Positions 34,495 through 49,340 of a stretch of 64,000 nt of DNA are shown in pieces. Where the stretch lies: contig CALEZT010000267.1 in NCBI GenBank assembly GCA_937927975.1, positions 62,001 through 126,000 of the forward strand, written 5' to 3'. The number at the start of each line of letters is the position of its first letter. The stretch's first letter is position 1. The DNA comes from an uncultured Phycisphaerales bacterium. Its GTDB lineage: Bacteria > Planctomycetota > Phycisphaerae > Sedimentisphaerales > Anaerobacaceae. Both the position numbers and the translations under genes were made by a program. A model generated the notes under the pieces. The model saw nothing but the letters and a program-made list of their open reading frames with translations. It had not been told where the DNA came from and did not search any database.

Positions 34495-36087
34495 CTACTG
34501 CTGGTTCTTGAGCTGCTCGTAGAAGACCATGGCCGGCGAGCCCGCGAAGCTGATGCCCATCCAGGCGGCCTCGTCGATCTCCGCATCGGAGAAACCTTTC
34601 TTCCTTGCGTTCGCCAGGTGCATTTTGAGGCACGGCTCGCACCGCAACGCCACCGATAGCGCGATCGCCATCGCCTGCTTGGTGTACGCGTCGAGCCCGC
34701 GCGGCGCATTGGCGGCACCGAGGAACTGCTTGAACGCCGCTCTGACCGAGTCTTCCACCGAACCGCTCTGCCTGGAAGGCGTGACAGCGTCGGCGCAGCA
34801 GGGAATCTCGTCCATCGAGGATGGATGATTTGCGATTGATGATTGTGGCGATTCGATCGCCTTGGCAGGGGCGGCCGACGGGATTGTGCGCCGTCCGGTT
34901 GTTTCGACGTGGATCACGCCTGCGCCCTTGTCCTTGATCCTGCCGATGATCGTCGCCGCACTGACGCCGCGATTGTGAAGAGCTTCGAGCAGATCCCCAG
35001 CACGGGCCTGTTCGATGGCGATCAGGAGTCCGCCGGAAGTCTGCGCGTCGAAACAGATATCGACCATCTCCTGGGGGAGCCGCTCGGAAGCGACCACGCG
35101 GTCGGCGCAGGATTCCTTGTTCCGCTCGATCGCGCCGGGGAGGATGCCCGCCGCCGCGTATTCGAGTACGCCTTCGAACAGAGGCAGATCGTCCCAGACA
35201 AGTTGAACATCAACTCCGCTGGAGCGCGCCATCTCCGCCAGGTGGCCCATGAGACTGAAGCCCGTGACATCGGTGGCTGCGTGAGCGCCGAACCGGATCA
35301 TGAGTTCCGCCGCGGTCTTGTTGAGCGACGTCATCGATGCCGCCGTGGCCTGGACGCTCTCGGGCCTGGCGCGGTCGATCTGGGCTGCGAAGGCCACGAT
35401 GCCGGTGCCCAGCGGTTTGGTCAGAATCAGCACATCTCCCGGTCGGGCGCCGGCGTTGGTGACGACCTGATCCTTTTGGATGATCCCTGTGACGGCGAAC
35501 CCCGCCTTCACCTCCGGGTCGTTGATGCTGTGGCCCCCGATGATGGCGCAGCCGGCCTCCTTCATTTTGTCGATGCCGCCGCGAAGGATCTCGAACATGG
35601 CCTCGTCGGGGATCTTCCGCACGGGGAACCCGATCACCGACAGCGCGGTCAAAGGCGTGCCGCCCATCGCGTAGATATCGCTGACGGAATTGGCGGCCGC
35701 GACCTGGCCGAACGTGTAGGGATCGTCCACCGAAGGCGTGAAGACGTCCACCGTCTGAACGAGGGCCTGGCCGTCGCCCATGTCGTAGATGCCGGCGTCG
35801 TCCCCGGCCGCCATCCCGACCAGTACGCGAGGATCGTCAACAGGAGGCAGATCCTTCAGCACCCTCTTGAGAAACGCCTGATCGATCTTCGACGCGCAGC
35901 CGGCCTTCTCCACGAGCTTGGTCAATTGGATGGGCCCGGTCGGACTATCGAGCCGCTCGCCCGCACAGCCGCAGATGTTCTTCTCCTTGAAGGTCGGACA
36001 GGGACAGGGTTGTTTGGCATCGCAGATGCAGTGGCCCAGCTTGATCGACCGTTGCATCACACGCTTGCGTCTTTCCATGTTGATCAT
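34495..36087 (-). CDS. selD: selenide, water dikinase fused to a C-terminal AhpD/CMD domain
   Basis: SelD makes selenophosphate, the selenium donor for SelA. 530 aa against about 345 usual. Order: a Cys-rich N-terminus (HCICDAKQPCPCP then NICGCAG, about residues 18-42); the SelD core with active-site Cys-Lys in KAGCASKID (Cys form, not Sec), the AGDDAGIYD and DVFTP nucleotide/metal motifs and ATDVTGFSLMGHL; a linker (about 395-430); and a carboxymuconolactone decarboxylase/AhpD-like domain ending RCEPCLKMHLANARKKG, the CxxC-x3-H redox motif. ATG 36087 has TGAGGA 8 nt upstream. Last gene of the minus-strand run that starts at the selenoproteins. Confidence 0.9.
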   Translation of the reverse strand: MINMERRKRVMQRSIKLGHCICDAKQPCPCPTFKEKNICGCAGERLDSPTGPIQLTKLVEKAGCASKIDQAFLKRVLKDLPPVDDPRVLVGMAAGDDAGIYDMGDGQALVQTVDVFTPSVDDPYTFGQVAAANSVSDIYAMGGTPLTALSVIGFPVRKIPDEAMFEILRGGIDKMKEAGCAIIGGHSINDPEVKAGFAVTGIIQKDQVVTNAGARPGDVLILTKPLGTGIVAFAAQIDRARPESVQATAASMTSLNKTAAELMIRFGAHAATDVTGFSLMGHLAEMARSSGVDVQLVWDDLPLFEGVLEYAAAGILPGAIERNKESCADRVVASERLPQEMVDICFDAQTSGGLLIAIEQARAGDLLEALHNRGVSAATIIGRIKDKGAGVIHVETTGRRTIPSAAPAKAIESPQSSIANHPSSMDEIPCCADAVTPSRQSGSVEDSVRAAFKQFLGAANAPRGLDAYTKQAMAIALSVALRCEPCLKMHLANARKKGFSDAEIDEAAWMGISFAGSPAMVFYEQLKNQQ

Positions 36088-36207
36088 GATTGAGTCCTCA
36101 TGAAGGATTGAAGATTCCGCGTTGATCTCAGGGGCTCTGCCCTCGTTATTGAACACATCTTCGTCTTGGGTCCGTTCTCGCCTCGTACGGCGGCTTGCGC
36201 ACGCGCG

Positions 36208-36703: not shown

Positions 36704-37489
36704 TCATGATGGGTTCTCACCATAGCGTCGCGCCAACAGCGCAGCTCCGAGGGCGCCGGTCATCTGCGGCTCGGGCGAGATGGCGATGGGTTGGCCCAGG
36801 GCCGTTTGGAGGGCCGTCTCCATGCCCCTGATCCGCGCGACGCCGCCCGTGAAGATGATCGGCGTCTCGACGCTCCGGCCGGCCATCGCGACGATTCGCG
36901 AGGCGATGGCGTTCTGCACGCCTGCGACGATGTCCTCTGCGGGCCGACCGCAGGAGAGCAGGCCGATGATTTCCGTCTCCGCAAAAACCACGCACATACT
37001 GCTGATCGCGGCGGAATTGCTGCTTCGCGAGGCCATGGCGCCCAGGTCGCCGACGAGAATGCCCAGCCTCTCGGCAACCACTTCGAGAAACCGCCCGGTC
37101 CCCGCGGCGCACCGGTCGTTCATTGCGAAGTCCCGCACCTTGCCGTTGCCGTCGAGCCGAACGAGTTTGCTGTCCTGGCCGCCGATGTCGATGATCGTAC
37201 GAACCTCCGGCACGAGGTGACGCACGCCTACCGCGTGACACGTGATTTCTGTGATCGTCGTGTCGGCGATTTCGATCGTGTTGCGGCCGTAGCCGGTCGC
37301 GACGATGCGACGGACGTTGGATCGTTGTACGCCGCTCTCGGCGAGCGTCTTCTCGAACAGCCCGCACGCGAGCTTGCCCTGCTCAATCCCCTGATCGGTC
37401 TGGGCCTTGCCAATGATTCGCGAGCCATCTGCGTCGATCAACACGACCTTGATCGCCCGCGAACCGGCGTCGATTCCAGCATAGATCAT
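36704..37489 (-). CDS. 2-hydroxyacyl-CoA dehydratase activator ATPase (HgdC/BadG-like)
   Basis: 261 aa ASKHA-fold ATPase that drives low-potential electron transfer into dehydratase or double-cubane partners. YAGIDAGSRAIKVVLID is the phosphate-1 motif, TIIDIGGQDSK the phosphate-2 motif, and FTGGVARIRGM the adenosine motif. The subunit-bridging [4Fe-4S] cysteines are in NDRCAAGTGRFLE and SMCVVFAE. The start is the second of two tandem ATGs (37489), which overlaps the TGA of the upstream gene; GGAGAG is 4 nt away. Confidence 0.9.
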   Translation of the reverse strand: MIYAGIDAGSRAIKVVLIDADGSRIIGKAQTDQGIEQGKLACGLFEKTLAESGVQRSNVRRIVATGYGRNTIEIADTTITEITCHAVGVRHLVPEVRTIIDIGGQDSKLVRLDGNGKVRDFAMNDRCAAGTGRFLEVVAERLGILVGDLGAMASRSSNSAAISSMCVVFAETEIIGLLSCGRPAEDIVAGVQNAIASRIVAMAGRSVETPIIFTGGVARIRGMETALQTALGQPIAISPEPQMTGALGAALLARRYGENPS

Positions 37490-38868
37490 CATTCTCTCCG
37501 GTCTTTCACCGTCTCCACAAGGGCTTCCAGCCTGGTACACAAGGTTGCCTTCGCCGCGTCGGTGATCGAGGGCACTTCGATCTCCAACGCAGGCAGGCCG
37601 CATTCCTCCCGAACGATCCGCCCGATGATTTCGCCTTCCAGGGCGCAGTGACTTGCGCCGGGAATGCGAGAGACGATCACCGCCTCGGCCCCAAATCGGC
37701 GGATATCAGCGACGATCCTCGCGGCGCGGTCGAACGACGGCCCGACCATCGGATCGGCCAACGCCATTTGCGCCAACGCCTCCATCGGAGGGAGCGTCGT
37801 CGGGATCGGGTCGAGAGCGTGGGCGAAGAGATACTCAGTGCCGCAGATTCGCCCGCCACAGTCCTCCAACAGGTTCATGGCCTGCAAATCAGCCACGGGG
37901 TTCACCCAGAAGATCCGGGCCGCATCAATCGACAGGTGCCCCACTCCCGCTTCCACCCGCCGTTCAACCTCGGCCAGCAAGTCCGTCAGCACGAGGATCG
38001 TCTCATCCTGGTCCGAACAGAAGTGGATCGCGAGCATCTCCGCAATCAGCATCTCCAGCGCCGGCATCGGACACAAGGGCGCCGTGAACGCAAGATGTCG
38101 AAGCCGGTCCAGCAACTTGCGGACGCGGTTGGCCTTTGCGATGCCGGCAGCGAGCGCTCCATCGTCCAGCGGCCGGCCGGCCAGTTCCTCCAAAGCAACT
38201 CCCACGCGGAGCAATTCAGACTTCACGAATTCGACCTGGCTTCTCAGCGCCTCAAAGCCGCCAGGCAACGTCACGGCCTCTTCGCCGGGCTCGGCTTGCC
38301 GTCGGTGCGGAATCTCCCACCAGAGAATCGGGTGACCCAGGCCGTTCAGTCGCTGCGCGATGGCGGAGAAATCGTCGCAGGTGGCGCCCACGCTGCACGT
38401 CAGCAGATCGGGGAGAGGGAAATGGGCCTCGGTGACGAACGCGCCCAGCATTGCGCGGACCGGGCAGAACGACTCGTCGATCCCGAGCGAATCGGCGATC
38501 TGAAGCAGGCCGGTGTTGAGCTCCATCACGCAGGGAATCCACCACGCGCCGTCGGGGTAGAAGGCGACGAGATTGTCCAGACTGTAGGCTATGACAGGCA
38601 CGGTGCCGAGGTCCTTCATCGCGCCGACGAGCTTCTTGCCCGACTCGCGGGCTGCGCGGAGCCGATCTTCCTCGGTCAAGAGGAAGTTCCATAGCCGCAG
38701 GGCGGCGGGCGAGTTGTCGTAGCGGAGCTTGAGCAGCCGCGTGTCGCCGTCGGCCACGTGCCGGCTGAGCGGTCCGCCGTAGACGGGTTCGGTCAAGCCC
38801 GCGGCTCGCAACCGAGCGTATTCGCGATTCCACTGCTCCAGACTGATTTGTCGCGGCTCGGCGGTCAC
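37489..38868 (-). CDS. 2-hydroxyacyl-CoA dehydratase-family protein (HgdB-like) A
   Basis: 459 aa, HGD-D/BadD superfamily. Seen are the conserved Cys positions SFCPVRAM, LTCSVGATCDDF and the C-terminal SRIPGASHCALEGEIIGRIV followed by PALEIEVPS, as in cluster-binding subunits. Its stop overlaps the activator start and its start overlaps the upstream HgdB-like gene (38865-38868), so the three are one translational unit. Substrate unknown; it need not be a hydroxyacyl-CoA. Confidence 0.82.
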   Translation of the reverse strand: MTAEPRQISLEQWNREYARLRAAGLTEPVYGGPLSRHVADGDTRLLKLRYDNSPAALRLWNFLLTEEDRLRAARESGKKLVGAMKDLGTVPVIAYSLDNLVAFYPDGAWWIPCVMELNTGLLQIADSLGIDESFCPVRAMLGAFVTEAHFPLPDLLTCSVGATCDDFSAIAQRLNGLGHPILWWEIPHRRQAEPGEEAVTLPGGFEALRSQVEFVKSELLRVGVALEELAGRPLDDGALAAGIAKANRVRKLLDRLRHLAFTAPLCPMPALEMLIAEMLAIHFCSDQDETILVLTDLLAEVERRVEAGVGHLSIDAARIFWVNPVADLQAMNLLEDCGGRICGTEYLFAHALDPIPTTLPPMEALAQMALADPMVGPSFDRAARIVADIRRFGAEAVIVSRIPGASHCALEGEIIGRIVREECGLPALEIEVPSITDAAKATLCTRLEALVETVKDRRE

Positions 38869-39782
38869 TCAAGCATCTCCAGAAAAGCGTGGATACGGGT
38901 CCGCAGGCGGGCCACGTTCATCTCGCCGTTGCCGTCGCTGTCCACCCCGAGCACGGGCAGGCCCGCCCATTCCTTCAGTCGGGCAAGCTCCGCCCGCCAC
39001 GCATCGCACCATACGTAATGGTGGAAGACGATTCCTCTTGCCCTGGTCTTCGCCAGTTCATCCTTGAGCCAGGCGTACAGATCGCTGTTGGGCCGGCGGG
39101 AGGCGTCGGGAATGACGAAGTACGCATCGGCGAGTTCCATCAGCGGGTCCTCCGCCATCCGCCTGCGATCGAAGGCCCGCGGCTGCCCTCGCAGGCCGGT
39201 CTCGGTGGCGTCGAGTACGACCCGCCCGCCGGACTCTTCGATGAGATCGAATAGGACGCGATCCCTCTGCATGAAAGGCCCTCCCACCACCGCAACAGGC
39301 ACAAAAAGGGGACATTCTGCTTTTCTCTCGATCGGCCCCACAAGCACAGGAGCATCGGGCACAAAAGCAGAATGTCCCCTTTTCTTCATCACTTGCGCCA
39401 GCGCCTCGTTGGAGGGAGTCTGTCCGCCCAAGCGGACCAAGAAGCGGCCGAGGCGTTTGAGCTCATCCAGATACATCCGTTGAGCGGCAACGGTCTGCCA
39501 GGTCTTCGGTACATTCAGTAGAAACGCCGGTGTGTTGCTCCCACAGACCAACAGATCGTACGCCCGCCGCATCTGGTCGCAAAGGGTCGTGACGATGATC
39601 CCGGCGGCGTCCTCCCCAGCGGCGTCGTTGATAAACGCCCGGGCATACGGACAGAAGCCCTCCACTCGCGGAGCAATAGACGCTCCGTCGGTCGGCAGCG
39701 GAATCAGATGCCGCGGCTGAAAGCCGTGAGCGGCGATCCATTCGGCCGGCACATAGGGACACGTATAGACGATAGTCTTCAT
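38865..39782 (-). CDS. 2-hydroxyacyl-CoA dehydratase-family protein (HgdB-like) B, with in-frame repeat
   Basis: 305 aa. MKTIVYTCPYVPAEWIAAHG at the start, EGFCPYARAF, and C-terminal VLGVDSDGNGEM belong to the HgdB-like superfamily. The ATG at 39782 (AGGGACG just before it) begins 8 bp after the previous stop. Between about residues 133 and 161 the coding sequence is made of a 21-bp perfect inverted repeat (39304-39324 and 39363-39383), read as KKRGHSAFV and KAECPLFVP, which looks like an in-frame insertion in the middle of the protein. Confidence 0.78.
   Translation of the reverse strand: MKTIVYTCPYVPAEWIAAHGFQPRHLIPLPTDGASIAPRVEGFCPYARAFINDAAGEDAAGIIVTTLCDQMRRAYDLLVCGSNTPAFLLNVPKTWQTVAAQRMYLDELKRLGRFLVRLGGQTPSNEALAQVMKKRGHSAFVPDAPVLVGPIERKAECPLFVPVAVVGGPFMQRDRVLFDLIEESGGRVVLDATETGLRGQPRAFDRRRMAEDPLMELADAYFVIPDASRRPNSDLYAWLKDELAKTRARGIVFHHYVWCDAWRAELARLKEWAGLPVLGVDSDGNGEMNVARLRTRIHAFLEMLE
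39304..39383 (-). repeat. 80-bp inverted repeat inside coding sequence
   Basis: Two perfect 21-bp inverted arms (AAAAGGGGACATTCTGCTTTT at one side, core shown without its flanks is AAGGGGACATTCTGC) separated by 38 bp. This GGGGACATTCTGC motif has the look of a REP-type palindrome. It lies fully in frame in the HgdB-like gene. Confidence 0.8.
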
Positions 39783-39790
39783 CGTCCCTC

Positions 39791-41035
39791 TCATGCCTGC
39801 CCACATGCCCTTTGTTGAACGGTTTCGAACAACGCCTCGACCCGCAGCGCGATCCGCGCGGAATCCGAGGGCGAGTAGTCCGTCTCGATCCGCAGGTACG
39901 GCAGGCCGAGATCTTTCTCCGCCAGTTGCTTGACGAAGAACGATTCCACGTCATACGTCAGGCACGCCTGCCAGATCAGATCGATCACGCACTGGGCCCG
40001 GTATTCTCCCGCCAGATCCCGAAGGACGTCAAACCGCCGACTGTTTCGCGTCATGACCGAGCACGGCAGGCGGAAGTACTTCTCCGCGATCGCAACGATC
40101 GGATCGGCCGCGGTTTCGTCCACGTCGTCGAGGATCGGCTTGAGCCCGGTGCAATTGTCCGTGGCGACGACAAGTCCGCCGTGAGACTCGACAAGCTCCA
40201 GTACGCGCTCGGCCCCGTGCGCCATGGGGACGCCCGTCATGAGCACGCGGACCTTCGCATTGCCCTCGGGCTTCTTGCCGGCGTACATTTGCAGCGCCCG
40301 CTCGTATTGTGCGAAATCGGCGCAGATGCCGGAGATGCTGCTCTTGTACTGGAGCAGTTGCCGTCCGGTCAAAGGCGGATGATCCGCCTTCATCAATCCC
40401 GCCAGTTGTCGTCGGAGCGACCGCTCGCGGTTCATCGTCGCGGTCGCCTTGCGGATCTTCTCGTCGGTGATCGTCACGTTGAACGCCTGTTCGAGCTTGG
40501 CCTTGAGCTTGCGAAGCTCGCTGACCCAATGAGCCATCGCGTCGACATCGTCGGGCTTCTGCGGCAACTCCAGCACGTGCATCGGCCGCGTCTGGGCCAT
40601 CAACTCGTACATCTTCTTCTTGCCGTCGCAGGTGGTCTCGGCCACGATCAGGTCCGCCATCTCCAGGAAGGGATTGGCCTTCTGGACGTGGTAACCGTAG
40701 GTGGACTTGATGAGCGGGCACAGGTTGGCCGGCAGGTGCTCTTCCGCCGGGCCGATCGTTTCAGCCGAGCCGCCGCACAGGCAGACGGGCACCGCGCCGG
40801 CCGCCATGATCAGTTCCCGCGGCGTGTACTCGCACATGATGCCGACGATCCGCTTGCCCTTGGCCTTGGCGTCCCTGGCGTACTGAAGACAGTTCGGGAT
40901 CATCTGCTCGAACCAGGCGAGCGGGCAGCCCGGCGTCCCAGACGCCGTCGCCTTCGATCCGCACGACACCTGCGGCGGATGGCACGGATCGGTCGGATCA
41001 ATCTTCACATCGCTGTTGCCACAACACTTTCCCAT
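39791..41035 (-). CDS. double-cubane-type / 2-hydroxyacyl-CoA dehydratase-family reductase
   Basis: 414 aa. MGKCCGNSDVK start at ATG 41035 with AGAGGA 6 nt upstream; the longer frame to 41062 runs into the repeat element. Conserved features: GIMCEYTPRELIMAAGAVPV, the CPLIKSTYGY cysteine, AETTCDGKKKMYELM and the C-terminal QACLTYDVESF with LRIETDYS, matching the double-cubane-cluster/benzoyl-CoA reductase BCR-type superfamily. It would receive electrons from the activator at 36704. An unusual N-terminal Cys-rich stretch (CCGN, CHPP, CGSK) precedes the domain. Confidence 0.85.
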   Translation of the reverse strand: MGKCCGNSDVKIDPTDPCHPPQVSCGSKATASGTPGCPLAWFEQMIPNCLQYARDAKAKGKRIVGIMCEYTPRELIMAAGAVPVCLCGGSAETIGPAEEHLPANLCPLIKSTYGYHVQKANPFLEMADLIVAETTCDGKKKMYELMAQTRPMHVLELPQKPDDVDAMAHWVSELRKLKAKLEQAFNVTITDEKIRKATATMNRERSLRRQLAGLMKADHPPLTGRQLLQYKSSISGICADFAQYERALQMYAGKKPEGNAKVRVLMTGVPMAHGAERVLELVESHGGLVVATDNCTGLKPILDDVDETAADPIVAIAEKYFRLPCSVMTRNSRRFDVLRDLAGEYRAQCVIDLIWQACLTYDVESFFVKQLAEKDLGLPYLRIETDYSPSDSARIALRVEALFETVQQRACGQA

Positions 41036-41053
41036 GACATTCCTCTGATGATG

Positions 41054-41185
<132 letters not shown>

Positions 41186-41194
41186 GCCTCTTTC

Positions 41195-41995
41195 TTAGCT
41201 CTTCTTCGCCACGAACAGGCCCTGGGCGATCTTGCCGGCGCGGGCCAGTTGCTGGATGAACGCCATCTCCGCCGCCATCGCCTGCATGAGGCTCTGGTCG
41301 AAACCTATAAGCTGCAGAGCGTCGTACGTCAACTGCATACCCAGCATGTTGAGATACAGGTCGATGCAGGGCGAGAATCGCCCGGTATCCTTTGCAGCGA
41401 GCATTTCGCAGCCGTTGGCTTTGAGCAGGTCACAATAGCCGTCGATGCTCTCGATGTTCGCGAACTTCATGAATCTTAGGAATCGGTCGGCCTCCGGCTG
41501 CGACAGGCCCTTGCCTTCGACCCAGTCGGTGAACGCGATGACGCCGCCCGGCCGCACGATCCTGGCCGCCTCGGCGATCAGCTTGCTTTTGTCCACGACG
41601 TAGCACCAGGCGTCCTCGCCCCAGATGAAATCGACGCTGTTGCTCACAAGGCCACTATTGCATACGTCGGCCAGGGTGAAGCCGATCTTGTCGGCCAGAC
41701 CCGCTTGTTGGCATCGCTGTTGGCCCAATTCGACCATCGCTTCCGTGGCGTCCACGCCCATCATCGCCGCCACGTCGCGAAAGCGGACGAGGAACCGCAT
41801 CCCTGCGCCGCTGCAGCAGCACAGATCGACGCCCTTGCTCCCGGCCTTGATGCCCGCCTGCTCGGCCAGATCCATCGAGGATGTCAGGCCCCCGATATGG
41901 ATCTGCTCGCCCATGATCAGTTCCCACAGTCGGCCCTCGGCACCGCTGTAGACTCCCTGCACTTGCTTCAATCCGACACCGCTTATGCTCTTCAT
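41195..41995 (-). CDS. class I SAM-dependent methyltransferase
   Basis: 266 aa. The SAM-binding motif I is VDLCCCSGAGMRFLVRF (usual LDLGCGxG), followed by GVDATEAMVELGQQR (motif post-I), SVDFIWGEDAWCYV (motif II) and ARIVRPGGVIAFTDW (motif III). It resembles sarcosine/dimethylglycine- or UbiE-type enzymes acting on small molecules. AGGGAG precedes the ATG; the DUF3034-like stop is 12 bp upstream, so they share a transcript. Substrate unknown; the neighbourhood (selD, selenoproteins) allows a selenium or thiol substrate as speculation. Confidence 0.85.
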   Translation of the reverse strand: MKSISGVGLKQVQGVYSGAEGRLWELIMGEQIHIGGLTSSMDLAEQAGIKAGSKGVDLCCCSGAGMRFLVRFRDVAAMMGVDATEAMVELGQQRCQQAGLADKIGFTLADVCNSGLVSNSVDFIWGEDAWCYVVDKSKLIAEAARIVRPGGVIAFTDWVEGKGLSQPEADRFLRFMKFANIESIDGYCDLLKANGCEMLAAKDTGRFSPCIDLYLNMLGMQLTYDALQLIGFDQSLMQAMAAEMAFIQQLARAGKIAQGLFVAKKS

Positions 41996-42007: not shown

Positions 42008-42898
42008 TTAGAATTCGTATTTGACCTGGATGGCCCAGACGCTGTCCTCACGGTCGTTCAGGATGTTGCCGAAATTGGCGTATCCGCCGGCCACCGTAAT
42101 ACGGTCGTTGACGATATACCCCAGGCAGATGTCCCACCAGTCGTCCTCGGACTTGACCAGGCCGGGGATCTCGTCGCACAGATCAGGTTTCTGGCGATAC
42201 TCGCCTGCGATCAGGAACTTGTCGGTGAGCAGACAGATCACGCTGCCCTCGACCGTGGTGCGCCGCTCGCCGGCGAAACCGAGCAGGCCGGTGTGGATGG
42301 CGTCGCCGTTGCGAAGACCCGCCGAGACGATCAGCGGACGGGGCAGCAGCTTGGCGATCATCTTGGTGGCTGTGAGGGTGAACTCGACGCCGCTGTCATG
42401 GTCGACGCCGAGCGCCTCGCAGGTTCCGTTCAATTGCTTGTTGATGTCGTCGTGGTCCTGGTTCCATTTGTAGTGTACGCCCAACGACACCGCGGGCATC
42501 CAGGCGTGGTCGAACGCGCCCTCTTTGATCGCCAGGACCCTCGCGTTGAAGTTGTGCAGGTACGCATCGTCCTGGACGCGCAAACCCGTGGCGTCCCGCA
42601 CAAGGCCAGGCCACTCGCCCAGGCCGATGCGTTCGAGCCCATAGCCCAATTCGATCCGCCCCCAGAGGTTCTCCGTGATGACGAACGCCTGGAAGTCCTT
42701 CTTGCCGATGTCGGCGTAGGTGCCTGAGATGCTCGGGCGACCGAAGACCTTGCCCTCCTCCGCCGGATTGGCGAAGTACGCCGTGGGCGTGATGAACACG
42801 CCGCTGTTGCCCTCGACCTGGTGCGTCGGCAAAGGCGGTGCGTCGTCGCCGCAGGCCGCCGCGCCCAGCACAGCCAGAATGATCATCGCCGCTCTCAT
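42008..42898 (-). CDS. DUF3034-like outer-membrane protein
   Basis: 296 aa. ATG 42898 (MRAAMIILAVLGAAACGDD) has GGGAG 5 nt upstream and starts a signal peptide with a loose lipobox. The body alternates short amphipathic strands ending in a C-terminal aromatic residue (IQVKYEF), as in beta-barrels; VEGNSGVFITPTAYFANP and GRIELGYGLERI fit DUF3034. First gene after the selenoprotein terminator; probably co-transcribed with the methyltransferase. Confidence 0.65.
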   Translation of the reverse strand: MRAAMIILAVLGAAACGDDAPPLPTHQVEGNSGVFITPTAYFANPAEEGKVFGRPSISGTYADIGKKDFQAFVITENLWGRIELGYGLERIGLGEWPGLVRDATGLRVQDDAYLHNFNARVLAIKEGAFDHAWMPAVSLGVHYKWNQDHDDINKQLNGTCEALGVDHDSGVEFTLTATKMIAKLLPRPLIVSAGLRNGDAIHTGLLGFAGERRTTVEGSVICLLTDKFLIAGEYRQKPDLCDEIPGLVKSEDDWWDICLGYIVNDRITVAGGYANFGNILNDREDSVWAIQVKYEF

Positions 42899-42961
42899 TG
42901 CTTTCTCCCGCTCACACGATGTCCACATAGCCCAATCTCCAACAGAACATCTCGAACCAAT

Positions 42962-42996
42962 AAAAAAGGCGGGCCAGAGACATCTCTGAACCCGCC
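42962..42996 (-). terminator. intrinsic terminator of the selenoprotein operon
   Basis: On the minus strand GGCGGG-tt-CAGAGA, a 2-nt loop, TCTCTG-g-CCCGCC, then seven T residues. It follows the third selenoprotein gene by 26 bp and marks the end of that operon. Confidence 0.88.
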
Positions 42997-43021
42997 GGTA
43001 CACGCTTTCGCGAAGCTCGTG

Positions 43022-44416
43022 CTATTCGATGGAGTGCCAACTCCTTTCCTGGTGGACTTCGAAGGGCCCCAGGTCCATTTCGATCTGCACCTGGAACTTG
43101 CCCTTGAACCCGTCTGGCACTCGCCACGAGTACCGGCAGATTCCGCCTCAGCCATACTGGAACTTGTCGGCCACGAGCACAGTTCCTTTCTCATCCACGA
43201 TCTTGAACGGGATCGGCGACGGGCGGCCCTGATTCTGTCGAAAAGCCGCAGAGTATGCCTCGCCTGCGCAGCCTATGACGGCGGGACTGATTGACACCCG
43301 CCCGGAACCAGACGTTTGCACATCCGCCTTCACAACGAACGGCGGCCCGATCTTGATGGATGTCGTCTCTCCCTGCTGAATGGTGAAGAACTCAAGCGGT
43401 CCCAACCGGGTAAACGCCGAATCGAGGCCGGATGAAAACACCCACACGTCCCCCGACGCATCTGCCTTTCTCATCACCGCGTAGATCGCTTTGTATTTCC
43501 CGGCCGGCAATCGTTGCTCCCGCTTGAACAGCAAGTGCTGATCCGCGGCGTCGGACCACAGCCGCAACTCCATGTCGATATCATTTGGCTCCACCATGAG
43601 AGTCCCGAGCGCCGGCTCCGTCGGGGAGAGCGCGAGGTCCCTCCCGTCCGGCGCGATATCGAGAGCGTAATAGGTGTCTTCAATTCGCACGAGCCTGCTC
43701 AGCGGCATGACTTCGGATCGCTTATGCTCTGAAATCTCAAAGGTCCCATTGCCATTCAGGTCGATAGCGAAAATGTCACAGGAAGGCACCCGCCACTGGC
43801 GATTCAGAGGCAACGACAGAATCGAGCGGAACCGACCGTCGCAGTCCCCGTCCACGACCGCCACTCGATAGGTTCGGCCGGCCAGGCGGAGTCTGCCGAT
43901 GTAGGAAAAGGCGGAGAACGTCACGACCGCAGCGGGTGCATCCGTCCGATAGCATTTCACATAGAACTCGCCGCCGGTCCTGCTGTCGCCATCGCGGGGA
44001 ACCAGCGAGATCGGGCCGAATTGTTGCGCTTCACTACTCTCGCGGGTTGCCCTGACGGTCTTGGGCGTGAGATAGTGTTCTTCTGAGAGAACACCGTCGC
44101 CGTCAGTGTCCACGCACAGACGCAGACCCGTGGAGGAGAAATCCAAGGCCATGGGAATCAGTTCGTCGGCGCTCTTGATCTGGTAATAGGCGGGTCGGTC
44201 AAAACCGGCAGGCAGGTCCTGCACACTATCCGGCTTTCCATCCAGCGGTTCAATAAAATAGAAGGCCAAGCCCATCAACTGGCTGTTGATGTCCGCCTTC
44301 TTGCGGGCCAGCCTGCACCGGCCTTCCTGGATAGGTTCGCGGGCGAGGAACAGCCACAGCAGTCCTCCGCTAAGGACGGTCACTCCCGCCAGGATGATCC
44401 AGCGTCGTTTCTTCAT
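43022..44416 (-). CDS. selenoprotein A (464 aa, Sec423), membrane-anchored
   Basis: A conventional frame stops at TGA 43150-43148, but the frame continues 41 codons to TAG and the extension (GGICRYSWRVPDGFKGKFQV...) matches the two upstream paralogs. I therefore read TGA as selenocysteine in QYG-U-GGIC. Residues 1-25 form an N-terminal membrane anchor (WIILAGVTVLSGGLLWLFLA). The large middle part, absent from the paralogs, has calcium-loop-like DTDGDGVLSEE and DLNGNGTFEISE motifs. The last 70 residues hold the shared domain. GGAGGT stands 6 nt before the ATG. Function unknown; U-x3-C may be a redox pair. Confidence 0.82.
43116..43134 (-). promoter_or_regulatory. SECIS hairpin of selenoprotein A
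   Basis: GGTACTCG-TGG-CGAGTGCC begins 14 nt after the TGA: an 8-bp stem with one T.G wobble. The apical G/T lies 21-22 nt downstream of the TGA, in the distance range of bacterial SECIS elements. Confidence 0.75.
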
Positions 44417-44458
44417 CGGGAGACCTCCGCATCGTCTCCGCGCCGCTCCGGCGTACTC

Positions 44459-44995
44459 TCAGAGCGAGTGCCACGGTCGCTCGTGCTCGACCTCGAACGG
44501 ACCGAGGTCGATGCCCACCTGGACTTGGAACTGGCCTGAGAAACCCGGTGGTACGCGCCACGCGTACCGGCATGCGCCGCCTCAACCATACTCGAACTGC
44601 CCCTCCGCGATCGTCTTGCCCTGCTTATCGACGACTCGCAGCCACGGGGCCGACAGCGCCCCGTTGTTCTTCTTGACCGTCGGCCGGTAGGTTTCGCCGG
44701 CCCGACCCTCGAGCACAAGCCCGATCGAGACCATGCCGGGATTCACCCGGCGAACATCGGTCTTCACCGCCAGGGGCGATCCCGGCTTGCGGCGGTTCAG
44801 CCAGGAAGGCCCGCCGGCCTGCTGAAGGGCCCAGACATAACCGAGATGATCGGATCGTTTCAAGGTTCCCTGCTCGAACCGCTCTTCGGGCGCCGCAGCC
44901 TCGGCGCCCGGTTCGAGGAACAGCGACGAGACCGGTATACCCGCGGCCCCGAGCGCGACCAGGATGTACAACCAGTATTTTTTCAGCGTTTGCAT
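44459..44995 (-). CDS. selenoprotein B (178 aa, Sec138), membrane-anchored
   Basis: The frame passes TGA 44584-44582 and runs 40 more codons to a second TGA at 44461-44459. The extension GGACRYAWRVPPGFSGQFQV...PWHSL is homologous to selenoproteins A and C. ATG 44995 (MQTLKKYWLYILVALG) is preferred to ATG 45034 because it makes the protein exactly as long as paralog C, although its ribosome-binding site is weak. Residues 1-25 are a membrane anchor. The region before Sec, SIGLVLEGRAGETY...LRVVDKQGKT, is shared with C. Expected to face the periplasm; function unknown. Confidence 0.85.
44550..44568 (-). promoter_or_regulatory. SECIS hairpin of selenoprotein B
   Basis: GGTACGCG-TGG-CGCGTACC, a perfect 8-bp stem starting 14 nt after the TGA. 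Compared with the hairpin of selenoprotein C, one T-A pair is replaced by G-C, a compensatory double change. Confidence 0.8.
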
Positions 44996-45108
44996 CCTGT
45001 TTTTATCGTCCTTCCGGGCGGCCGTCTTGACCATATCGCCGTGTGCGGACTATGGATTTCTCCCTGATCGAAACGGCGACGGGTCCGCGTCCATGCCCAC
45101 TCCGGCGA

Positions 45109-45645
45109 TCAGATCGAATGCCACGGCCGCTCGTGCTCGACCTGGAAGGGTCCGAGGTCGATGTCCACCTGCACCTGGAACTTGCCCTGGAAGTCATTGG
45201 GTACTCGCCACGAGTACCGGCAGGCACCGCCTCAGCCATACCGGAAACTGTCATCGAGCACCACCTTTCCGGCTTCGTCGACGACTCGCAATCGGGGAGC
45301 CGCCCTCGACATCCCGGCCTTCACGACCACGGGACTGTATCTTTGCCCCTCGCGGCCCGCCAGGACCAATCCGATCGACATCTGCCGGTTGCCAACCTGG
45401 AAGACATCCGTCCTGACAACAACGACGGGTTTCGCCTGCACGCCGTTGGCATCCCTGACGACGGATGGCCCGCTGATTTGCGTCAGCACCCATTCGGTCC
45501 CGTCTTCATCCGTCTGGCGGACCGACGAGCGGGAATTGAGCCTGGCCCGACCCGACGGCTCATTGAAGATCCATGACAGGGGAAACGCCAGCAACAGGCC
45601 CAGCACGACGATGCCGCCCACGATGATGAGTTGTCTTCTATCCAT
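45109..45645 (-). CDS. selenoprotein C (178 aa, Sec138), membrane-anchored
   Basis: First gene of the operon, with its own promoter and GAGGGA 8 nt before the ATG. The frame continues through TGA 45234-45232 for 40 codons (GGACRYSWRVPNDFQGKFQV...PWHSI) to TGA 45111-45109. Layout: membrane helix (LIIVGGIVVLGLLLAFPLSWIF), a polar region, a beta-rich segment MSIGLVLAGREGQRYSPVVV, RLRVVDEAGKVVLDDSFRYG, Sec138, Cys142, and a conserved tail DLGPF[QE]VEHERPWHS. Divergent from selA. No family recognised; if the TGA were a stop, a conserved 40-residue domain would be untranslated. Confidence 0.87.
45200..45218 (-). promoter_or_regulatory. SECIS hairpin of selenoprotein C
   Basis: GGTACTCG-TGG-CGAGTACC, a perfect 8-bp stem with a 3-nt loop, starting 14 nt after the in-frame TGA. 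Position and compact stem fit bacterial SECIS elements, which lie within the coding sequence just after the Sec codon. Confidence 0.8.
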
Positions 45646-45698: not shown

Positions 45699-45816
45699 CG
45701 GAGCGATCCGTGAAAAAAGCATCCGCCTACCCCAATAGACGCGGCTGCGGCTCGTTTGTTACCTGATCTTCCCGGGATTTTCGGTGAGCGTCAGCGTGAG
45801 CCGCATTCTCCATGCT

Positions 45817-45884
45817 GGACCTCATTGACCGGATTGACCCCATTGACGCTGAGGTCAGTAACGTCAATCCGGTCAATGAGGTCC
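45817..45884 (+). repeat. palindromic repeat, family B copy 1 (upstream of selA)
   Basis: 68 bp with perfect 22-bp inverted arms built of TTGAC units (GACCTCATTGACCGG ... CCGGTCAATGAGGTC) around a central GACGCTGAGGTCAGTAACGTC. A related copy lies downstream of selB at 49371. Confidence 0.85.
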
Positions 45885-45908
45885 GGCCGGTTGCTCCGGC
45901 AAATCGAC

Positions 45909-45936
45909 TTGTTTGCCTGTCTCCAGGCCGTACAAT
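45909..45936 (+). promoter_or_regulatory. promoter of selA
   Basis: TTGTTT (45909-45914), 16-bp spacer, TACAAT (45931-45936). The transcript would start at or within a base or two of the ATG at 45943, so selA may be leaderless; no ribosome-binding site is seen. Confidence 0.5.
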
Positions 45937-45942
45937 AGCGTC

Positions 45943-47352
45943 ATGGACCCACAGACCCAACAACTCATGCGGAGGGTTCCCTCGGTCGATTCGGTTCTGA
46001 GGGAGCCGGAACTCGAAGCGCTCGCGGCCGAGCACGGCCGAAAACTGGTGGCGGACTCCGTCCGTGAGGTGATTGAGGAGGTCCGCCGGCAACTCGTGGA
46101 TCAGTCGTCTCCTGAAACGGATGAGGCAGCGATCCGTGCCCGCGTCCTGACAGCGGCCAGGCAGCGAGTCACAGCGGTCGCCCGGCCGTTCTATGGTCGG
46201 GCGATCAACGCCACGGGGATCATCCTGCACACGGGGCTCGGACGCGCGGTCCTGCCGGCCAAGGCGATCGAACAGATCCAGGCCACCCTGCAGGGCTATT
46301 CCCTGCTCCAGGTGGACCGCGAGACGGGCAAGCGGTCCCGGCGGGATGAGCGAGTCGAATGGCTCCTCCAGCGTCTCACCGGAACCGAAGCCGCGACCGT
46401 CGTGAACAACAACGCCGCGGCGACCGCGATCGTGCTCAACACGGTGGCCAAGGGCAAGGAGGTGATCGTCTCGCGGGGCCAGCTCGTCGAGATCGGCGGC
46501 TCCTTCCGCCTGCCGGAGGTGATGGCCTTCAGCGGGGCCAGGCTGGTCGAGGTCGGCACGACGAACAAGACGCACCCCCGAGACTACGAGAACGCAATCA
46601 CCGAGAACACCGCCGCGATTCTTCGCGTGCATCCGAGCAACTACAAGATCCAGGGCTTCTCGTCGGAGGTCCCCCTCGACACGCTTGTCGAGATCGCACA
46701 CCGGCACAACCTGGTGATGATCGACGACGTCGGGGCGGGGGCTCTGATCGACTTCTCGCAGTTCGGTTTCGAGCCCGAGCCCACGCTGCCGGACTCGGTC
46801 CGCACAGGGGCCGACATCATCACGTCGAGCGCCGACAAGCTGATCGGGGCCTCGCAGGGCGGCATCATCCTGGGCAGGAAGGCCCTGATCGACAAGGTTC
46901 GCAAGAACCAGTTCGCGCGAATCGTGCGCGTGGACAAGCTCACCATGGCGGTGCTGGAGGCGACGCTGAAGTTGTTCCTCGATAAAACCATCGCGCTGCG
47001 CGAGGTGCCAACGCTCCAGATGCTGCAACGCAGCGCCGAACAGATTAGTGAACATGCGGAGCGACTGGCCGCCGCACTTCGGGATCAGAACGTCCACGTG
47101 GCCACAATCAGCGGGTTCTCGCAAATGGGCAGCGGTTCACTGCCCGCGCAGAATCTGCCGACCACGCTGGTGGCGATCACGCCGGAGGGGATCGGCGCCG
47201 AGATCCTGGCCCAGCGGCTGCGGCTGCACGACACACCGGTCTTTACGAGAATCCAGAACGACCAGGTGCTCCTCGACCCGCGCACGCTGCGGGCCGGCGA
47301 TGACGAGATCGTCATCGAAGCGGTGGCCGCAGCGCTTGCGGCAGGCGAATAG
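45943..47352 (+). CDS. selA: L-seryl-tRNA(Sec) selenium transferase
   Basis: Converts seryl-tRNA(Sec) to selenocysteyl-tRNA(Sec) with selenophosphate. 469 aa, usual size. PLP fold type I: the family N-terminus RRVPSVDSVLREPEL, AINATGIILHTGLGRAVLP, NNNAAATAIVLNTVAKGKEVIVSRGQLVEIGGSFR, VDDV-type IDDVGAGALID, and the PLP lysine in TSSADKLIGASQGG. It is followed by selB and is divergent from the three selenoprotein genes. The start at 45943 matches homologs. Confidence 0.96.
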   Translation: MDPQTQQLMRRVPSVDSVLREPELEALAAEHGRKLVADSVREVIEEVRRQLVDQSSPETDEAAIRARVLTAARQRVTAVARPFYGRAINATGIILHTGLGRAVLPAKAIEQIQATLQGYSLLQVDRETGKRSRRDERVEWLLQRLTGTEAATVVNNNAAATAIVLNTVAKGKEVIVSRGQLVEIGGSFRLPEVMAFSGARLVEVGTTNKTHPRDYENAITENTAAILRVHPSNYKIQGFSSEVPLDTLVEIAHRHNLVMIDDVGAGALIDFSQFGFEPEPTLPDSVRTGADIITSSADKLIGASQGGIILGRKALIDKVRKNQFARIVRVDKLTMAVLEATLKLFLDKTIALREVPTLQMLQRSAEQISEHAERLAAALRDQNVHVATISGFSQMGSGSLPAQNLPTTLVAITPEGIGAEILAQRLRLHDTPVFTRIQNDQVLLDPRTLRAGDDEIVIEAVAAALAAGE

Positions 47353-47364
47353 CGAGAGAACGAC

Positions 47365-47430
47365 GTCCTATGCGTCCCATAGGTCCCATGAGTCCTATGG
47401 GACCTATAGGACAAATGGGACTCATAGGAC
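47365..47430 (+). repeat. palindromic repeat, family A copy 2 (between selA and selB)
   Basis: 66-bp near-palindrome of GTCCTAT/CCCAT units ending 2 bp before the selB ATG. Its right end supplies AGGAC, the only ribosome-binding-like sequence for selB. Related to the copy at 4053. Confidence 0.8.
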
Positions 47431-47432
47431 AC

Positions 47433-49340
47433 ATGACCACCCAACAACACAACATAACCATCGGAACCGCGGGCCACGTCGACCACGGCAAGACCGCGCT
47501 GGTCAAGCTCCTGACCGGCTGCGAGACGGATCGGCTCAAGATCGAGAAGGAACGCGGCATGTCGATCGAACTGGGCTTCGCTCCGTGCGTGATCGCGGAC
47601 CTCGAGGTCGGCATCGTCGATGTCCCGGGCCACGAGAACTTCGTCAAAACGATGGTCGCCGGCGCCAGCGGGATCGACGGTTGTATCCTCGTGGTCGCCG
47701 CCGATGACGGCGTGATGCCCCAGACGCGCGAGCATCTGGACATCCTGACTTTGCTCGGGGTGGGGCACGGAATCGTCGCTTTGACCAAGGTGGACGCGGT
47801 CCCGCCGGAACGGACCACGGCGGCCGCCCAGGAAATCCGGCAATTCGTCACCGGCACGTTCCTGCAGGATGCCCCGATCCTGCCGATCTCCAACATCACC
47901 GGCCAGGGCTTCGAGGAGTTCTACGAGGCTCTCAAGGCCATGGTCGCGGCCATCACGCCCAAGACCGCCGGCGGCGTCTTCCGCGTGCCGGTCGAGCGGG
48001 CGTTCGCCGCAAAGGGCTACGGCACGATCGTGGCGGGGATCCCGACCTGCGGCTCGATCGCCATCGGCGACGAGGTCGAGCTGCTGCCTCAGCAGAAGAA
48101 AGGCCGCGTCCGGTCCGTCCAGGTCTACGGCCGGGACAGCACGCATGCCTTGGCGGGCCAGTGCGCCGCGATCAATATCCCGCAATGGGATCACAAGGAC
48201 GTCGAGCGGGGCAACGTCGTTACCCTCAGCGACTACTTCGCCCCGCGCCAGTGGTACCTGTGCGAGCTCAAGCTGCTGGACTACGAGAAGGCCGACCTCA
48301 AGAACGGCGCCCAGGTCAAGTTCCACACCGGCACTTCCGAGACCACAGCCAGCGTCTATCTCTTCCAGGAAAGCAGCCTCAAGCCCGGCCGCCGGTGCCT
48401 GATCCAGGTCTTCCTGAACCATCCCGTCATCGCGGGTCCGCGGGACCCTTTCATTCTTCGATCGATGTCGCCGACCCGCACGCTCGGCGGCGGCATCATC
48501 GTCGAAGCGATCGAGAGGCGGCTCAAGCGCACGCATTCCGAGGTCCTGGCCGAGGTCGTCGAGCGAGCCAGAGCCGTGACGCAACCGAAGACCTTCGTCG
48601 AGTATTGCGTGAAGACCGCCGAATCCGTCGCAGCCGACGAGAAGCAGGTCTCCCTTCGCACGAAGACGCCCTTGAAGGAGCTTGCGCCCCTGCTGGCGGA
48701 ACTCGTGGGCGAGGGCCGCATCGTGCCGCTGAGCGGCAAGGTCTTCATCCACGTGAATACCGCCAGGCAAGTCCGACAGCATCTGCTCGATGTCATCGGC
48801 GCTTTCCACCGCCAGCGGCCGGAGAGCCCGGGCATCACGCGCGAACAACTCTTGGCGGACTCCGCTGTCCGCAAGGACGTGTTCGACGCAATGACCGAGC
48901 AACTGCGATCCGAGAGCAAACTGGTCGAGAGAAAGGGCTGTCTCGCTCTGCCGGAGCATCGGGAGCAGTTCAAGGATGCCGAACAGCAACTGCTGCAGAA
49001 CGTCGAAACGATGTTCAGGAGCCATCCGTTCGATCCGCCGGGATTGCAGGAGGTCGCGGACAAGATGCGGATCACGCCGCAACAGCTCCAGCGGGTCATC
49101 CGCATTCTCAGCGAGCAGCAGCGACTCGTGCGTGTGGAGCAGGACATGTATTTCCACGCCGAGGCGGTGGCCGTCGCCCGCGAGAGACTGATCGCCTACA
49201 TCAAGGAGCACGGCGGCCTGGAGAGTGTGAAGTTCAAATACGTTCTCGATACGAGCCGCAAGTATGCGATTCCCCTGCTGGACTATTTCGACAAGATCGG
49301 CGTGACCCGCCGGATGGGATACACCCGGCTCTTGAAGTAG
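47433..49340 (+). CDS. selB: selenocysteine-specific elongation factor
   Basis: GTPase that brings Sec-tRNA(Sec) to UGA codons carrying a SECIS. 635 aa. GTP motifs: GTAGHVDHGKTALVK (G1), DVPGHENFVKTM (G3), ALTKVD (G4). Domains II-III follow (KGYGTIVAG, GCxxIP-like), then C-terminal winged-helix repeats (about 450-635) that read the SECIS hairpin, ending TRRMGYTRLLK. ATG 47433 (MTTQQHNITIG) is the family start; the 21 codons upstream are translated repeat sequence. Its partner RNAs are the hairpins at 43116, 44550 and 45200. Confidence 0.96.
   Translation: MTTQQHNITIGTAGHVDHGKTALVKLLTGCETDRLKIEKERGMSIELGFAPCVIADLEVGIVDVPGHENFVKTMVAGASGIDGCILVVAADDGVMPQTREHLDILTLLGVGHGIVALTKVDAVPPERTTAAAQEIRQFVTGTFLQDAPILPISNITGQGFEEFYEALKAMVAAITPKTAGGVFRVPVERAFAAKGYGTIVAGIPTCGSIAIGDEVELLPQQKKGRVRSVQVYGRDSTHALAGQCAAINIPQWDHKDVERGNVVTLSDYFAPRQWYLCELKLLDYEKADLKNGAQVKFHTGTSETTASVYLFQESSLKPGRRCLIQVFLNHPVIAGPRDPFILRSMSPTRTLGGGIIVEAIERRLKRTHSEVLAEVVERARAVTQPKTFVEYCVKTAESVAADEKQVSLRTKTPLKELAPLLAELVGEGRIVPLSGKVFIHVNTARQVRQHLLDVIGAFHRQRPESPGITREQLLADSAVRKDVFDAMTEQLRSESKLVERKGCLALPEHREQFKDAEQQLLQNVETMFRSHPFDPPGLQEVADKMRITPQQLQRVIRILSEQQRLVRVEQDMYFHAEAVAVARERLIAYIKEHGGLESVKFKYVLDTSRKYAIPLLDYFDKIGVTRRMGYTRLLK

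Follow-up and report, generated by a model that had tools for sequence, protein, structure and literature searches.

Three tandem genes with an in-frame TGA

The window analysed here is a stretch of 64,000 nucleotides from an uncultured Phycisphaerales bacterium (contig CALEZT010000267.1, positions 62,001 to 126,000), and all positions below are numbered within it. Its subject is a trio of consecutive genes on the minus strand, each of which runs into a TGA codon that is very probably read as selenocysteine (Sec). The genes and codons lie as follows.

45109..45645 (−): candidate selenoprotein gene 1, 178 residues when read through (the short form would have 137)
45232..45234 (−): TGA, putative Sec codon of gene 1, residue 138
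44459..45034 (−): candidate selenoprotein gene 2, 191 residues when read through, start codon uncertain
44582..44584 (−): TGA, putative Sec codon of gene 2, residue 151
43022..44416 (−): candidate selenoprotein gene 3, 464 residues when read through
43148..43150 (−): TGA, putative Sec codon of gene 3, residue 423

Each gene holds a single TGA in frame, after which 40, 40 and 41 sense codons lead to TGA, TGA and TAG in genes 1, 2 and 3, respectively. The original prediction, made from the letters of this stretch, had described three tandem minus-strand genes with an in-frame TGA and 40 or 41 open codons beyond it that align without gaps. Both descriptions are borne out, the former by reading the frames at codons 138, 151 and 423 and the latter by translating and aligning the trio. 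The gapless alignment of the extensions reads YG-U-GG[AI]CRY[SA]WRVP, followed by FQVQ, DLGPF and WHS, and is the best conserved part of the trio proteins; an example of a post-TGA peptide in the family is FQVQVDIDLGPFQVEHER. Gene 3 has a long N-terminal part with Asp-rich, EF-hand-like loops that fall below the Pfam cut-off. No Pfam or NCBIfam model was matched by the trio proteins at its cut-off, and none came near. TGA also serves as an ordinary stop in the window, where it ends 6 of the 14 open reading frames (ORFs) checked, and most database homologues of gene 1 stop at the same column as its 137-residue short form.

A hairpin inside the coding sequence

Each TGA is followed by a hairpin of the type of the bacterial Sec insertion sequence (bSECIS), which was absent from the original prediction and was found here.

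45200..45218 (−): gene 1 putative bSECIS hairpin, 8-bp stem GGTACTCG/CGAGTACC, loop TGG
44550..44568 (−): gene 2 putative bSECIS hairpin, stem GGTACGCG/CGCGTACC, loop TGG, with a compensatory change when compared with genes 1 and 3
43116..43134 (−): gene 3 putative bSECIS hairpin, stem GGTACTCG/CGAGTGCC with one G-U pair, loop TGG

All three begin 13 nt past the TGA, and the same letters encode RY[SA]WRVP. When the window was scanned with up to three mismatches allowed, the hairpin was seen at the trio only, with three matches on the minus strand against a mean of 0.02 in shuffles; the one extra match is the opposite strand of the same palindrome. A looser pattern, TGA-N9-TGY-N7-CNTGG, gave four matches in the window against 0.19 expected, the fourth of which, at 60832 (+), has no hairpin match in the stricter scan. 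The bSECIS model quoted in a 2026 review (PMC13188914) specifies a loop of 3–9 nt with a G in its first two positions, a stem of 4–16 bp, a distance from UGA to loop of 16–37 nt and an energy of at most −7.5 kcal/mol. With a 3-nt TGG loop, an 8-bp stem and 21 nt between TGA and loop, the trio hairpins fall within this model (PMC13188914), and the 45-nt regions that contain them fold at −17.8 to −19.3 kcal/mol.

The stem is maintained among relatives while its letters change. In an alignment of 25 members (24 distinct), whose register follows the stem, 96.4% of cells are paired and four of the eight pairs change on both sides; each of five measures was reached in 0–1 of 500 shuffles. Alignment A4 leaves out L004:10462 and L003:1681, the second of which has the loop TGT. 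A stem of at least 7 bp is found in 49 of 59 distinct members, and at the remaining TGAs of that DNA in 227 of 4948 (Fisher 1e-53). These 59 comprise 26 from the motif pattern or the first loci, 5 from the hairpin scan that are also profile matches, and 28 taken by profile alone, and in the last group the stem reaches at least 7 bp in 18 and at least 6 bp in 25. The 49 stems have 19 distinct 7-nt 5' arms. An example from a distant branch, TGGGCTTC-GGT-GAAGCCCG, encodes WASVKP, and the peptides encoded by the hairpin in different branches are YSWRVP, WASVKP and AVSVP.

In one subfamily (L106, L115, L117 and L118) the predicted hairpin has CGTGA as its loop and, in the 3' arm, a bulged U, and is another bSECIS form. 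The predicted RNA fold of L116 differs from that of its subfamily despite similar sequence there.

The frame beyond the TGA is under protein selection. The original prediction had proposed an analysis of dN/dS in the segments after the TGA; in 14 close members only, the ratio of nonsynonymous to synonymous differences (pN/pS) is 0.59 in the 45 codons before the TGA; beyond the TGA it is 0.34 outside the hairpin and 0.17 within it. It had also argued, from the divergence of third codon positions, for selection on protein. This holds outside the hairpin, where pS in the same members is 0.49, and fails inside, where it is 0.26 and codons are coupled, Ser TCG occurring with Arg CGA, Ala GCG with CGC and Thr ACG with CGT. 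The low pS and the Arg codon that tracks the Ser, Ala or Thr codon indicate that selection in the hairpin acts on RNA as well as on protein.

Relatives, the Sec column and the Sec machinery

Of the 97 homologues from a first protein search, a number that includes the window's own proteins, 94 stop precisely at the Sec column (92 with [YF]G and 2 with YT), as do 9 of 11 proteins from a second search and all 6 from a third, although the end of a protein at this column does not by itself reveal the stop codon. The three exceptions in the first search are P0005, which continues with W, P0044, which continues with R or D, and P0099, a fragment. The homologues come from sources named Sedimentisphaerales, Phycisphaerales and Phycisphaerae, and two are labelled Solirubrobacterales. 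Genomes scanned with the pre-TGA part alone as query yielded six loci, all in Planctomycetota, and in every one the stop is TGA and the frame continues; the downstream frame, whose loss in relatives the original prediction had regarded as telling against it, is thus kept in 6/6. Whole-genome searches of five genomes carrying those loci gave 25 matches, 23 of them with one TGA and some in much larger proteins. Up to nine members were detected in one genome (G005, among eight genomes searched).

A 24-row profile found matches in 39 of 294 sampled Planctomycetota genomes and a 40-row profile in 107. At most 13 candidates per genome were scored in the first of these surveys, 12 in the second and 4 in the survey for selB. 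For the 40-row profile, figures on the Sec column rest on the 150 matches listed, and more exist. Among these, 127 cross the column, 122 with TGA (in 73 genomes) and 5 with a sense codon; the other 23 end before it without a stop. Thus TGA stands at the column in 122/127 of the matches listed that cross it, and it was other stop codons there that the original prediction had singled out as contrary evidence. A single TGA is present in 119 of the 122, the others having two TGAs, TGA and TAA, and TGA and TAG. Eighteen regions were fetched from the survey matches, two of which had been seen before, and serve as a check, not as new counts; 17 gave a match and 17/17 of these have TGA. The original prediction had found a real trio and understated its scale, since the three genes are one branch of a superfamily of several architectures, with profile matches in 107/294 genomes.

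In an alignment of 40 diverse members (40 rows) Sec is the sole invariant column, at a mean column identity of ~20%. A Cys within seven residues after Sec occurs in 26 of the 40 and is lacking in 14, so U-G-G-x-C, put forward earlier as the motif, is not a motif of the family, and its reading as an obligate redox pair is ruled out. Vicinal Cys-Sec is present in most fetched members of one subfamily. The search for Cys or Sec at the TGA column of homologues that had been proposed gave, besides the TGA of 122/127 matches listed, one Cys homologue, L111, with TGC at the column and 39–46% identity to five Sec forms. It overturns the idea that no Cys form exists. L111 belongs to a subfamily of ~400 residues with motifs such as GC-U-G[ER]G..P.AVSVP, and shares 71% identity with the truncated P0113. 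Judged from sequence, L111 and the Sec forms are a classical Sec/Cys pair, found once.

A group of mostly ~700-residue proteins without a stop (G050:C42, G090:C34, G114:C14 and others) matches the pre-Sec half only and is possibly a non-Sec ancestor or a sister family. Viral contigs gave no relative and no exact hairpin, and in plasmids all matches among those listed (20 of 110 records) lie inside selA.

The window also contains the host's selA, selB and selD, all recognised by family models.

45913..47352 (+): selA, L-seryl-tRNA(Sec) selenium transferase, TIGR00474, 544 bits (cut-off 268)
47370..49340 (+): selB, Sec-specific elongation factor, TIGR00475, 357 bits (cut-off 242)
34495..36156 (−): selD with a C-terminal AhpD-like domain, TIGR00476, 373 bits; ahpD_dom TIGR00778, 40.5 bits

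selA-selB face the trio, and selD lies on the trio's strand ~7 kb beyond; the TIGR00474, TIGR00475 and TIGR00476 matches confirm this arrangement as it had been described earlier. Fusion of SelD to an AhpD-like domain is uncommon. Between the trio and selA, at 45814-45887, there is a 34-nt inverted repeat with arms 85% complementary and 6 nt apart, which may be a bidirectional regulatory element or a repeat element, and overlapping 24-nt inverted repeats occupy the selA-selB junction (47365-47420). The region between selD and the trio (36704-41995) carries an acyl-CoA dehydratase activase, three further ORFs that, by reading of the sequence, resemble 2-hydroxyacyl-CoA dehydratase subunits, and a methyltransferase with sub-threshold matches to the DVU_1556 and arsenite-methyltransferase families. 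A DUF3034 protein (42008-43003; Pfam 6e-29) lies directly downstream of the trio.

Across the sample the selB cut-off was passed by 190 of 294 Planctomycetota genomes and 2 of 14 control genomes. Of the 73 genomes for which the matches listed include a TGA-carrying member, 66 pass it, compared with 189/294 overall, a figure in which the 105 genomes without selB were classed by E-value (104 lie below the cut-off). tRNA-Sec, whose absence from the organism the original prediction had counted as a possible refutation, was searched in 43 genomes and later in 5, with a line of our own at 64 bits, placed at a gap in the scores between 64.9 and 58.3. This line was reached in 33 of the 39 genomes matched by the 24-row profile, in G001, G003 and G004 among the first five genomes (78 bits in the close relative G001), and in three (G013, G286 and G154) of the seven among the 73 that fail the selB cut-off. 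Members lie within ~12 kb of selB or tRNA-Sec on the same contig in at least 11 genomes (G003, G004, G013, G024, G036, G067, G131, G180, G197, G289 and G292), a count for which no null was computed. One strand in G003 carries a fragment of selA, selB and additional members in a row; in G292 the gene neighbours (sulfatases, CarboxypepD_reg) suggested no partner.

The Sec module is C-terminal or lies inside longer proteins, and 5 of 22 proteins scanned have a Pfam domain in frame beyond the TGA: Laminin_G_3 (1e-20; this member also has a sub-threshold F5_F8 match), Ank (8e-26), AhpC-TSA (4e-24), Exo_endo_phos (6e-21) and TPR (3.5e-6). The AhpC/thioredoxin domain, with WCGPC, follows the Sec module in frame in L118 502-2085 (−). 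In two predicted models Sec is placed in the same turn, surrounded by an all-beta sandwich and no thioredoxin fold; residues 141-178 have a predicted local confidence (pLDDT) of 95–97. The fold of the domain is thus predicted to be an immunoglobulin (Ig)/macroglobulin (MG)-like sandwich. A sequence search of the PDB gave the S-layer protein Sap as best match (E 0.027), fold searches returned only common sandwich folds among the matches listed, and Pfam on the 40 members recognised only MG2 in 2 and FlgD_ig in 1. Genes 1–3 start with a hydrophobic segment (helix 3-20 in the gene 1 model), and, by reading of the sequence, Sec is followed in several members by hydrophobic segments that probably span the membrane. 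Because of these segments the Sec domain is likely to lie outside the cytoplasm.

Interpretation and comparison with known systems

We consider with high confidence that the products of the three genes are membrane-anchored selenoproteins and belong to a new superfamily, in which UGA is read as Sec by means of a bSECIS hairpin. That they are selenoproteins, as originally predicted, is strongly supported by what the computation establishes: a selected frame, a covarying hairpin at bSECIS spacing, a near-exclusive TGA at the column (122/127 matches listed), members that co-occur with the Sec machinery and lie close to it, and a Cys homologue. UGA 138, 151 and 423 would be decoded by the neighbouring SelA-SelB-SelD system, SelB binding the 8-bp, 3-nt-loop hairpin within the coding sequence that also encodes RY[S/A]WRVP, and the residue inserted at the TGA is almost certainly Sec. 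Sec would sit in the turn of a beta-hairpin, and the residues after it would supply the last strands of the sandwich, so that the domain would be incomplete without recoding. The completed domain would be located outside the cytoplasm, where, to judge from the fusion in L118, its selenol might work together with a thioredoxin-like protein. Redox work by the selenol, for example reduction of peroxide or of a disulfide or electrophile at the cell surface, we give an even chance; the clues are the WCGPC fusion in L118, the vicinal Cys-Sec of one subfamily and the Cys near Sec in many other members.

Several observations weigh against this interpretation. The gene 2 hairpin region alone is no stabler than its shuffles (z −0.31), and is not convincing by itself although the set of hairpins is; Rfam at E 1 gave no SECIS match; and 3 of the 59 members lack a 6-bp stem under the rule used, longer loops being seen by eye in L045 and L049 and no convincing hairpin in L050. 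ARAGORN and Rfam found no tRNA-Sec (selC) within the 64-kb window, which is not the whole genome. The enrichment of selB (hypergeometric 1e-8) treats genomes as independent, and 5 of the 14 control genomes also pass the curated tRNA-Sec cut-off of the family, 47 bits. Four genomes (G136, G194, G217 and G276), whose assemblies are in many contigs, have neither selB over the cut-off nor tRNA-Sec of at least 64 bits, and G002 and G005, which were outside the selB survey, have no tRNA-Sec of at least 64 bits. The sense residues at the Sec column other than that of L111, as read from profile alignments, are mostly non-Cys (W in P0005, R/D in P0044, G in both L025 and P0110, S in L062 and A in L065), an uncommon pattern for a Sec with a catalytic role; in L025 the hairpin is short of one pair, by reading of its DNA. 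Finally, there is no fixed partner residue, so the chemistry is a guess.

Alternatively, Sec might be inserted and serve mainly as a selenium-dependent translational switch, or as a structural or ligand residue (one that binds a soft metal such as Hg, Ag or Cu outside the cell, for example), and not in redox catalysis. In favour of this are an invariant Sec with no second conserved reactive residue, the 14/40 members without Cys in the seven residues after it, and the non-Sec paralogues, in which the residue is mostly W, R/D, G, A or S and not Cys; against it are the retention of TGA in 122/127 matches listed at ~20% mean column identity, the existence of a Cys homologue and the AhpC/thioredoxin fusion, and we regard it as rather unlikely. 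Much less probable is programmed readthrough of the stop without Sec, brought about by a different tRNA or solely by the hairpin. Readthrough is what the sequence itself attests and Sec is deduced, but a bSECIS-type hairpin at near-constant spacing in most members, TGA almost exclusively at the column, the enrichment with and nearness to selA, selB and tRNA-Sec, and the Cys homologue all speak for Sec.

The remaining two possibilities have a negligible chance of being right. For TGA as a sense codon for Trp in this organism one can cite the in-frame TGA itself and the Trp in P0005; genes 1 and 2 terminate at TGA, as do 6 of the 14 window ORFs checked, members typically have one TGA at one column, and the TGA-terminated neighbours lead us to reject it. 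Equally improbable are tandem pseudogenes, a sequencing error or the insertion of a palindromic repeat that truncates genes, as the palindromic hairpin and the truncated look of the short ORFs might suggest. The same arrangement recurs in many assemblies across the phylum, protein selection continues past the TGA, and different stems do the same job in distant members (the 19 5' arms among 49 stems); pseudogenes are rejected on the downstream frames kept and the pN/pS after the TGA, and a mobile palindrome on the differing stems.

Returning to the selenoprotein interpretation, we lean towards the broader view that Planctomycetota carry a portable Sec module: an Ig/MG-like and probably extracytoplasmic domain with Sec as its sole invariant residue, duplicated and variously fused, in which the SECIS helix dictates the peptide, and which is maybe the main reason that the Sec machinery is kept. 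Segments combined with the module are membrane, lectin-like, ankyrin, thioredoxin, TPR and nuclease-type. If this is true, selenium chemistry takes place at the planctomycete cell surface. Gene callers cut the proteins at the Sec codon (94/97 homologues), and the superfamily has thereby been hidden in at least a quarter of sampled Planctomycetota genomes (73/294, 24.8%, among the matches listed). The homology filter of deep-Sep, as described in the part of PMC12013277 available to us, relies on Cys or known Sec homologues, and methods of this kind would tend to miss the family because its Cys forms are rare. The superfamily would place Sec in a non-thioredoxin, probably surface-exposed domain, enlarge the known bacterial selenoproteomes and supply many natural, covarying bSECIS variants for studies of SelB recognition. 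How a Sec that has no fixed partner reacts can now be put to direct tests.

In its in-frame UGA, downstream hairpin, selA, selB and selD, and tRNA-Sec (here in relatives), the system is like other bacterial bSECIS selenoproteins. Table 1 of PMC13188914 contains 119 prokaryotic selenoprotein families and subfamilies, none of which matches by name or motif, and NCBIfam recognised 0/40 members at E 0.01, which agrees with the earlier statement that no described family was recognised. The selenoproteins of two planctomycetes named in the accessible part of PMC4807772 are other enzymes, and a literature search by title or start of abstract found no description of the family, which may be mentioned in full texts. 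According to the review PMC13188914, the majority of characterised selenoproteins adopt a thioredoxin-like fold, and Cys homologues exist for nearly all; in contrast, the trio's family is predicted to form an Ig/MG-like sandwich and yielded one Cys homologue.

The predicted likeness of this sandwich to the MG domains of alpha-2-macroglobulin (Pfam MG2; MG1 of E. coli A2M, 4zjh) comes with an identity of ~10%, and a shared sandwich fold shows no function. MG and Ig-like domains are not known to carry Sec, or any residue with a catalytic role, in this turn. Among AhpC/TSA, redoxin and thioredoxin proteins, including the UGC-containing TlpA-family selenoproteins, there is likeness to L118, which has such a domain after Sec; unlike in these proteins, Sec is in a separate sandwich domain, and the other 21 proteins scanned have no such domain. 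SoxY carries a C-terminal GGCGG motif on an Ig-like fold and uses Cys. It offers only a lead, as its reactive residue, too, has glycines on either side and lies at a turn or arm of a sandwich protein, and G-[CU]-G-G resembles its motif. Recoding itself is already known; what is new is a superfamily of Sec proteins whose predicted fold is unusual, whose Sec domain is used as a module and among which Cys forms are few.

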